Below, in pieces: positions 44,529 through 45,517 of a stretch of DNA of 64,000 bases. The stretch's first letter is position 1, and every line of letters starts with the position of its first letter. A program made the position numbers and the translations under genes. Source of the DNA: Vagococcus zengguangii (GTDB lineage: Bacteria; Bacillota; Bacilli; Lactobacillales; Vagococcaceae); NCBI RefSeq assembly GCF_005145005.1, contig NZ_CP039712.1, positions 651,001 to 715,000 on the forward strand, in the 5' to 3' direction. The notes under the pieces are model-generated. The model saw only the letters and a list, made by a program, of their open reading frames with translations, was not told where the DNA came from and made no database searches.

Positions 44529-44960
44529 TTAAATAGATTTATAGTAAGGTTGCATCATCATGCTACCTTTTGCGAAAGGTTGGTCAACTGCAACATAACC
44601 TAATTTCTCATAGAATTTCCAAGCAGAATCACGTGCGTTTAAAACAATACTGTGATAGCCTTGTTGGCGAGCAATATTTTCAGCATATGTCATAATTGAT
44701 TTGCCAATGTTTTTGCCACGATAGTCTGGTGAAACGGCGACTTGTTTAATTTGGGCTTGATGTGGATTGTCAGTGTTGTCTAAAAAGAGTGTTGCAACAA
44801 CTTTTTGATCAATGACGGCAACTAGGTGGATGGCTAATTCTTCATCAACTGGCGCATCGGTAATTAACGTCAAATTACTTGGAATGTTTAATTGTTCATT
44901 TCTTAAATTGATACCTTCAAAATATTCTTTACTTAACCATTGAATTTTCTTTAATTGCAT
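44529..44960 (-). CDS. GNAT-family N-acetyltransferase (second)
   Basis: 143 residues, single acetyltransferase domain. The acetyl-CoA motif is in KQVAVSPDYRGKNIGKSIM (R-G-x-x-I-G form) and the C-terminal part shows HSIVLNARDSAWKFYEKLGY. GGAGG precedes the ATG. A TATAAT (minus strand, 45013-45018) may give it a separate promoter, but it also lies downstream of the M-box ORF on the same strand, 133 bases away, with only a weak hairpin between. Substrate unknown. Confidence 0.88.
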   Translation of the reverse strand: MQLKKIQWLSKEYFEGINLRNEQLNIPSNLTLITDAPVDEELAIHLVAVIDQKVVATLFLDNTDNPHQAQIKQVAVSPDYRGKNIGKSIMTYAENIARQQGYHSIVLNARDSAWKFYEKLGYVAVDQPFAKGSMMMQPYYKSI

Positions 44961-45093: not shown

Positions 45094-45210
45094 CTACATA
45101 AAAATGCGTTGTGAAAGAAAGTTTGCGGCTGATTTTATAACAGACGCATAAAGACTTTCTTTCATGGTTATGGCGGGTCCTGAGGTATCGTTACTATGAT
45201 TTTGGTCCAT
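45094..45210 (-). CDS. 38-residue ORF downstream of the M-box (unknown small protein)
   Basis: Small ORF, ATG at 45210, stop TAG at 45094-45096. It has one of the best ribosome sites in the window, AAGGAGG with 8 bases to the ATG. The peptide begins MDQNHSNDTSGPAITMKESL and ends NFLSQRIFM; polar N-terminal half, mildly amphipathic C-terminal half, no clear membrane helix or lipobox. Not recognised. It sits directly after an M-box riboswitch and its terminator, where a magnesium transporter is normally found. A different frame stays open through the end of the ORF to 44951, so an ancestral frameshift is possible. It could be a real small protein, a leader peptide or a gene remnant. Confidence 0.55.
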   Translation of the reverse strand: MDQNHSNDTSGPAITMKESLYASVIKSAANFLSQRIFM

Positions 45211-45244
45211 TACAAAATCCTCCTTCTCTTTAAAAATAGGCAAT

Positions 45245-45284
45245 AAAAAATCCTTGTAATGCGAAAAAAACACAACACAAGAAT
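45245..45284 (-). terminator. Regulated terminator of the M-box leader
   Basis: On the minus strand CTTGTGTTGTG / CGCATTACAAG stem (10 of 11 positions pair, counting wobbles) followed by GATTTTTT. It lies between the riboswitch and the 38-codon ORF, the usual place for a magnesium-controlled terminator. Confidence 0.8.
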
Positions 45285-45294
45285 GGTCTTACCG

Positions 45295-45467
45295 TTATGA
45301 TTTCTTCGTTGAGTTTTAGCACTATACAACGTAAAAAACACCGTAATGTTTTTAGGTACCTTTAGAAAAGCCTTAATTCAACTATTCATGTTTTACCCAT
45401 TGGCATCTTTCGATGTTTCTGGGCAGCACCCTATGTTTGTATAGACGCCTCGCCTAACAAAATCGTT
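45295..45467 (-). promoter_or_regulatory. M-box (ykoK leader) magnesium riboswitch
   Basis: On the minus strand the leader contains the conserved M-box words in order: GTTAGGCGAGGCGTCTATAC, GGTGCTGCCCAGAAAC, ATCGAAAGATGCCAATGGGT, AATTAAGGC and finally TATAGTGCTAAAACTCAACG. The two ends can pair to form P1. M-box RNAs bind Mg2+ and usually stop transcription of mgtE, corA-like or P-type Mg transporter genes when magnesium is plentiful. Here the downstream feature is a 38-codon ORF. Confidence 0.9.
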
Positions 45468-45488
45468 AATATTATTTTTACAAATAGA

Positions 45489-45517
45489 AATATATCACGT
45501 TCGAAAAGTTTGTGCAA
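45489..45517 (-). promoter_or_regulatory. Promoter of the M-box transcript
   Basis: Minus strand TTGCAC (45512-45517), 17-base spacer, TATATT (45489-45494) with TG one base before it. The first transcribed bases would lie about 15 bases before the M-box. Confidence 0.7.

Follow-up and report, generated by a model that had tools for sequence, protein, structure and literature searches.

A leader ORF between an M-box riboswitch and a GNAT gene of Vagococcus zengguangii, a candidate second tier of magnesium control

M-boxes, the Mg2+ riboswitches of the ykoK leader type, have been treated as complete switches placed directly ahead of transporter genes, and in enteric bacteria ribosome-based sensing of Mg2+ is associated with the leaders mgtL and mgtQ. 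MgtL of the enteric mgtA gene is a short leader peptide of acidic and proline-rich composition. In Salmonella, mgtQ is located between mgtC and mgtB, and tests in vivo revealed that ribosomes abort translation because of Asp2 and Glu5, whereby the mgtB ribosome site becomes free (PMC8092293). A short translated ORF after an M-box is known from Mycobacterium tuberculosis, where the pe20 M-box is accompanied by uORF2/rv1805A with mgtC in the operon, and the rv1805A peptide was described as specific to mycobacteria (PMC12810186).

In the present study an M-box of Vagococcus zengguangii was analyzed, in which a leader ORF comes between riboswitch and downstream gene. It lies in a window of 64,000 nucleotides (assembly GCF_005145005.1, contig NZ_CP039712.1, positions 651,001 to 715,000). 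This ORF and mgtQ are alike in being short, in a strong ribosome site, an acidic residue 2 and alternative RNA hairpins, which are predicted in the present case; however, mgtQ belongs to a Mg2+ operon without a described upstream M-box (PMC8092293), whereas here the M-box is present and the gating from leader to downstream gene is predicted to be weak. In the pe20 leader of M. tuberculosis an anti-ribosome-site segment upstream can mask the start region, which recalls helix A of the leader described below, but that system combines a translational platform and Rho with a peptide conserved in its amino acids, whereas the locus from Bacilli displays a predicted intrinsic terminator, a different peptide and mainly RNA-level constraint (PMC12810186). 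A short ORF behind an M-box is hence already known, while its version in Bacilli, a GNAT gene as target and acidic leaders are apparently new; no report of leader ORFs behind M-boxes in Bacilli, of GNAT as an M-box gene or of acidic leaders behind M-boxes was found in a literature coverage that was incomplete, so that this absence is weak evidence.

Layout of the locus and the gene behind the M-box

A sequence-only reading of the stretch had placed on the minus strand the promoter TTGCAC-17-TATATT, a complete M-box, a terminator and, after AAGGAGG-8-ATG, an ORF of 38 residues, with no transporter directly behind the M-box, all of which was confirmed (Table 1). The Rfam search with RF00380 recovered the aptamer in full length (model positions 1-169 of 169) with 139.4 bits, above the gathering score of 44. 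In the nearest relative, G003, the promoter is conserved, and the same M-box and ORF are present at the matching place. The hairpin with U7 that follows the aptamer (predicted fold -16.1 kcal/mol) was missed by a simple terminator scan because it is A+U-rich; its outer stem CAUAAC/GUUGUG and U7 are retained in G003, and the expression platform is predicted to be able to end transcription. Eight nucleotides separate AAGGAGG from the ATG, after which 38 sense codons and a stop follow. Full aptamer and terminator-type expression platform are shared with the RF00380 family, whereas the downstream gene is not directly a transporter but, with the leader ORF intervening, a GNAT gene.

Table 1. Positions of the features of the M-box locus in the window, with the evidence for each.
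Feature	Position	Strand	Evidence
Promoter TTGCAC-17-TATATT, extended -10 (TG)	45489..45517	-	Sequence and scan; spacing identical in G003
M-box (ykoK leader) Mg2+ riboswitch aptamer	45295..45468	-	RF00380, 139.4 bits; 96% identity in G003
Terminator-like hairpin and U7, expression platform	45264..45299	-	Sequence and fold
Shine-Dalgarno AAGGAGG of leader ORF	45219..45225	-	Sequence
38-codon leader ORF MDQNHSNDTSGPAITMKESLYASVIKSAANFLSQRIFM	45094..45210	-	Sequence; kept in G003; 0/3000 shuffles
Helix A left arm GATTTTGTAATGGAC, leader ribosome-site edge and start codon	45205..45219	-	15 bp with right arm
Helix A right arm GTCTGTTATAAAATC, inside leader ORF	45131..45145	-	Pairing and folds
Segment 1 TGAAAGAAAGT	45154..45164	-	Folds; 11 bp with segment 2
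Segment 2 ACTTTCTTTCA	45112..45122	-	Folds; pairs with segment 1 or 3
Segment 3 GAGAAAGTT, at leader stop codon	45086..45094	-	Folds
GNAT N-acetyltransferase, likely M-box-controlled gene	44529..44960	-	Pfam PF00583, E=1.3e-17; M-box/GNAT synteny in relatives

The GNAT gene encodes 143 residues and starts 133 nt beyond the leader ORF on the same strand; no terminator was found between the two by scan, and in the profile search no specific GNAT subfamily reached its cut-off. The earlier reading had let the M-box lead to the ORF in place of a transporter: the ORF is indeed present, but the M-box leads on to the GNAT gene, which had not been seen. We infer a shared transcript of leader ORF and GNAT, although GNAT may have a separate promoter, and GNAT is tied to Mg2+ solely by the mgtC and mgtA operons of relatives. 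M-box and GNAT occur together in the window species, G003, V. lutrae (G002), V. salmoninarum (G012), V. allomyrinae (G020) and V. fluvialis (G024). V. fluvialis, G028 and G381 have the gene order M-box, GNAT, mgtA, V. bubulae and numerous genomes from other genera have M-box, mgtC, GNAT, and beyond the Vagococcus species M-box plus GNAT are conserved in other families as well. This repeated association suggests that GNAT is a member of the M-box regulon, a link by which the GNAT family would gain a place in Mg2+ physiology.

Conservation of the leader ORF and folds of its RNA

None of 3000 dinucleotide shuffles of the stretch contained an ATG-initiated ORF of 30 or more codons behind an equally good Shine-Dalgarno sequence, and the ribosome site, from which the sequence-only reading had argued for translation, belongs to a real and probably translated ORF. 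Near relatives for comparison are few (four genomes in the genus). A search for the peptide, as proposed by that reading, succeeded in G003, where the ORF is intact without indels and the peptide 81% identical, and yielded no other convincing match, so that only one of the 148 other genomes searched carries it; weak matches in other genomes (L005-L011) had no M-box nearby and look like chance. Between window and G003, DNA identity falls from 96% in the M-box to 90% in the leader ORF and 67% just past the leader stop, and the leader ORF is conserved to the same degree as the promoter. Silent changes in the ORF affect 4 of 24.8 sites and replacement changes 8 of 89.2 sites, which corresponds to rates per site of 0.16 and 0.09, respectively. 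For the same pair dS reached 1.39 in GNAT and 1.51 in yidC, silent sites being near saturation; silent changes amounted to 63% in GNAT, compared to 4/25 sites in the leader. Since the leader DNA is held far tighter than the neighbouring genes and the amino acids drift, the constraint is placed mainly at the level of RNA, a pattern that points to a region acting in cis as RNA more than to a protein-coding one.

The peptide found no family match in profile searches, and no membrane-spanning hydrophobic stretch is evident in its 38 residues when the sequence is judged by eye. It is mildly acidic, with D2 and D8 only, and not proline-rich. At the corresponding place V. lutrae has the ORF MDDANGPSQLHTYIKTYGNHLMVAVS, whose peptide is quite different from that of the window, V. 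salmoninarum has MMDEYESITWKEQKLSSTDLTANF and V. allomyrinae MDGSISITRKEQENSSTDSTTTS, and in these three species a further short ORF is located between leader and GNAT. Across the leaders of relatives, position, ribosome site and early Asp are kept, but the peptide is not.

Within the leader, the left arm of helix A (GATTTTGTAATGGAC) begins at the final G of the ribosome site, extends across the start codon and can pair over 15 bp with GTCTGTTATAAAATC (P=0.007 against shuffles). In G003 the 15 bp are kept through two changes (P=0.002), in V. lutrae 14 bp are formed (P=0.012), and V. salmoninarum and V. allomyrinae possess 9 bp each of other sequences (P=0.040 and P=0.042, respectively), so that helix A is present in five of five GNAT leaders despite sequence turnover, with P of 0.002-0.042 each. 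Many mgtA leaders contain a helix A of 15-18 bp; P<0.01 was reached in 16 of 57 leaders, which are related to each other, so that a combined P would not be a true probability. The hairpin of segments 1 and 2 crosses helix A, and the two do not coexist in a nested fold. For window and G003, respectively, the predicted energy is -35.3 and -33.5 kcal/mol with helix A, compared to -28.3 and -28.5 kcal/mol in the competing state; helix A is hence predicted to be favoured by 7.0 and 5.0 kcal/mol, respectively.

The predicted response of the next gene in the window is little: accessibility of the GNAT ribosome site was 0.39 with the leader free and 0.50 with the leader blocked. Two general rules were considered and rejected. 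That leader occupancy uniformly hides or frees the next ribosome site did not hold over 53 leaders (mean accessibility 0.44 free and 0.48 blocked, P=0.79), the direction of the effect varying between leaders, and an anti-ribosome-site segment shared by leader and next gene was found in only 15 of these 53.

Acidic-start leaders and the proposed two-tier control

In Lactobacillales, most M-boxes that belong to Mg2+-transporter genes are followed by a short ORF with an acidic start, and comparable leaders (MDSPSSSR, MDIGPSPR, MDGDPRSYR) stand behind M-boxes of other Bacilli. In 62 leaders ahead of mgtA or GNAT, which were chosen by ribosome site alone and blind to acidity, Asp or Glu occupies residue 2 in 60%, whereas shuffles gave 8%; two or more acidic residues among positions 2-5 occur in 52%, whereas shuffles gave 4.4%. 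Both values were only 3% at the 37 M-boxes that precede FtsW/RodA, PAP2, LCP or MgtC genes, and the contrast between these gene classes at genus level had P=0.004. Where GNAT intervenes, the acidic leader remains with mgtA (L026, L027, L155), and therefore the leader is seen as a module of its own. Like MgtL, many of these loci have an acidic and proline-rich short leader before mgtA, a likeness drawn by description; the window peptide, in contrast, is not rich in proline and not strongly acidic, ranks with the weaker members of the acidic-start class and belongs to a separate lineage. In the sister mgtA leader of the window genome the first 19 codons, compared to G003, gave rates of 0.72 for silent and 0.05 for replacement changes, with only nine silent sites; so low a replacement divergence next to the silent one clearly indicates that the peptide is selected and hence translated. 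Across related bacteria there are statistical signs of selection on the first leader residues as well as on the RNA helix.

The M-box, the conserved ORF, its synteny with GNAT, the RNA-level constraint and the recurring helix A were obtained by computation, and on them a control of GNAT in two tiers can be modelled. With plentiful Mg2+ the aptamer would fold and the terminator would stop transcription. In the second tier, the 38-codon ORF would act in cis as a leader ORF: the 15-bp helix A, which joins the start-codon region to a stretch further along the ORF, would lock the start. As helix A would exclude hairpin 1:2, the leader RNA would have two possible shapes; which of them is adopted would depend on a ribosome on the leader, and this shape would set expression of the downstream gene. 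Ribosome occupancy would presumably flip the leader RNA, with GNAT expression as output. That the ORF is such a cis-acting leader, a second switch at the level of translation under the riboswitch, we regard as rather probable. More speculatively, acidic residues at the leader start could abort translation at low Mg2+ and turn the ribosome into a second Mg2+ sensor; sensing by ribosome destabilisation in analogy to Salmonella mgtQ is put forward tentatively. The case for such sensing is weakest for the peptide of the window, which has D2 and D8 only, and the effect of occupancy has no common direction; neither claim is therefore put more strongly. It is likewise a doubtful, though conceivable, extension that in Lactobacillales and further Bacilli the transcripts of Mg2+ genes under an M-box carry an acidic-start leader ORF as a second, ribosome-based Mg2+ sensor, in which failure of translation at low Mg2+ flips a self-locking RNA and so sets transporter or GNAT expression. 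If the ribosome acts as a second sensor, Gram-positive bacteria would have arrived along a different path at the kind of ribosome-based Mg2+ sensing that enteric mgtL and mgtQ provide.

The good ribosome site and the conserved RNA could also be accounted for without ribosome destabilisation, if the leader worked by plain translational coupling or mRNA protection and the M-box alone sensed Mg2+, with helix A simply limiting leader translation. However, leaders that start acidic occur specifically behind M-boxes of genes for Mg2+ transporters and GNAT, and the sister mgtA leader is under constraint in its amino acids, so that coupling or protection is considered possible but not favoured.

The sequence-only reading had offered a new small protein made under Mg2+ shortage, comparable to MgtS, with GNAT then merely next in the operon, or else a leader whose transporter was lost or moved. 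For a small functional protein speak the strong ribosome site, the intact ORF in G003 and the M-box of M. tuberculosis, which directly controls the conserved small ORF rv1805A (PMC12810186); yet the comparison of silent and replacement changes, which that reading had suggested, turned against protein-level selection on the window ORF, as the two rates are similar and the silent sites strongly held. With the differing peptide of V. lutrae, the single convincing match among 148 genomes and neither a membrane segment evident nor a family match found, a small protein is judged unlikely. In the case of a remnant, the M-box would have served a transporter lost since then and the ORF would be debris or a chance product, for which the absence of a transporter directly downstream could be cited. 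The conserved GNAT gene downstream contradicts it, given that the M-box/GNAT arrangement is kept in different genera and that mgtC or mgtA accompany GNAT in M-box operons, as do the promoter-like conservation of the leader and the shuffles that never yielded a comparable ORF. Moreover, the host genome (G000, 2.19 Mb) contains one other M-box, 36 kb away, followed by the short ORF MDDSQSEQEIMTQKEKPPSYLDEEHHTSPQISG and mgtA; as mgtA has its own M-box, the transporter is not missing from the M-box set of this genome and the M-box of the window serves another gene. A remnant is thus regarded as very improbable.

Further observations on M-box transcripts

The GNAT gene of the window starts in frame. 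All eight M-box-controlled mgtC genes examined (L025, L100, L119, L139, L144, L149, L151, L159) have the ATG behind the ribosome site in the -1 frame relative to mgtC (ATG NNT TTT T), whereas mgtC homologues outside the M-box group in Bacilli mostly start in frame. Twenty GNAT orthologues from three families (L168-L183, L185-L187, L189) likewise start with ATGGTAAAAC or a close variant, among these one TTG start and one ATGGTAAAGC, and have the GNAT frame at -1; the start sequences of M-box mgtC or GNAT are ATGAATTTTTA or ATGGTAAAACA. Frameshifting at codon 3 or reinitiation could explain the offset, and an overlapping TGATG in some genomes would favour reinitiation over frameshift. The conserved -1 offset at codon 3 of these mgtC and GNAT genes of relatives is a possible third control at the level of translation.

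In L110-L115 an ORF of 46-48 residues lies about 77-226 nt after the M-box, with a hydrophobic start and an acidic/proline part (..DEPDPT.., ..DFDPHPT..), and no transporter was found downstream of these M-boxes; they are better candidates for a small Mg2+ protein than the window ORF. The loci L050, L051, L056, L059-L063, L074 and L096 contain, between leader and mgtA, a small ORF (about 30-42 residues, e.g., MIHTNLSGILFFMVGCFLWIQQVGKKV) that includes a membrane-like stretch; it overlaps mgtA or lies close to it and is possibly an MgtS- or KdpF-like partner. V. lutrae (L013/L015) possesses tandem M-boxes ahead of mgtA, and the stop codon of the intervening ORF MENSDCSCRCLGMDTDDPAPDRKSWTFR is located inside the second M-box. 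Finally, M-boxes precede cell-envelope genes (PAP2-like, FtsW/RodA, LCP family) instead of transporters in the genera g25, g33, g40 and others, at the loci L085, L087-L095, L097, L098, L102, L104, L105, L107, L146, L150 and L152-L154.
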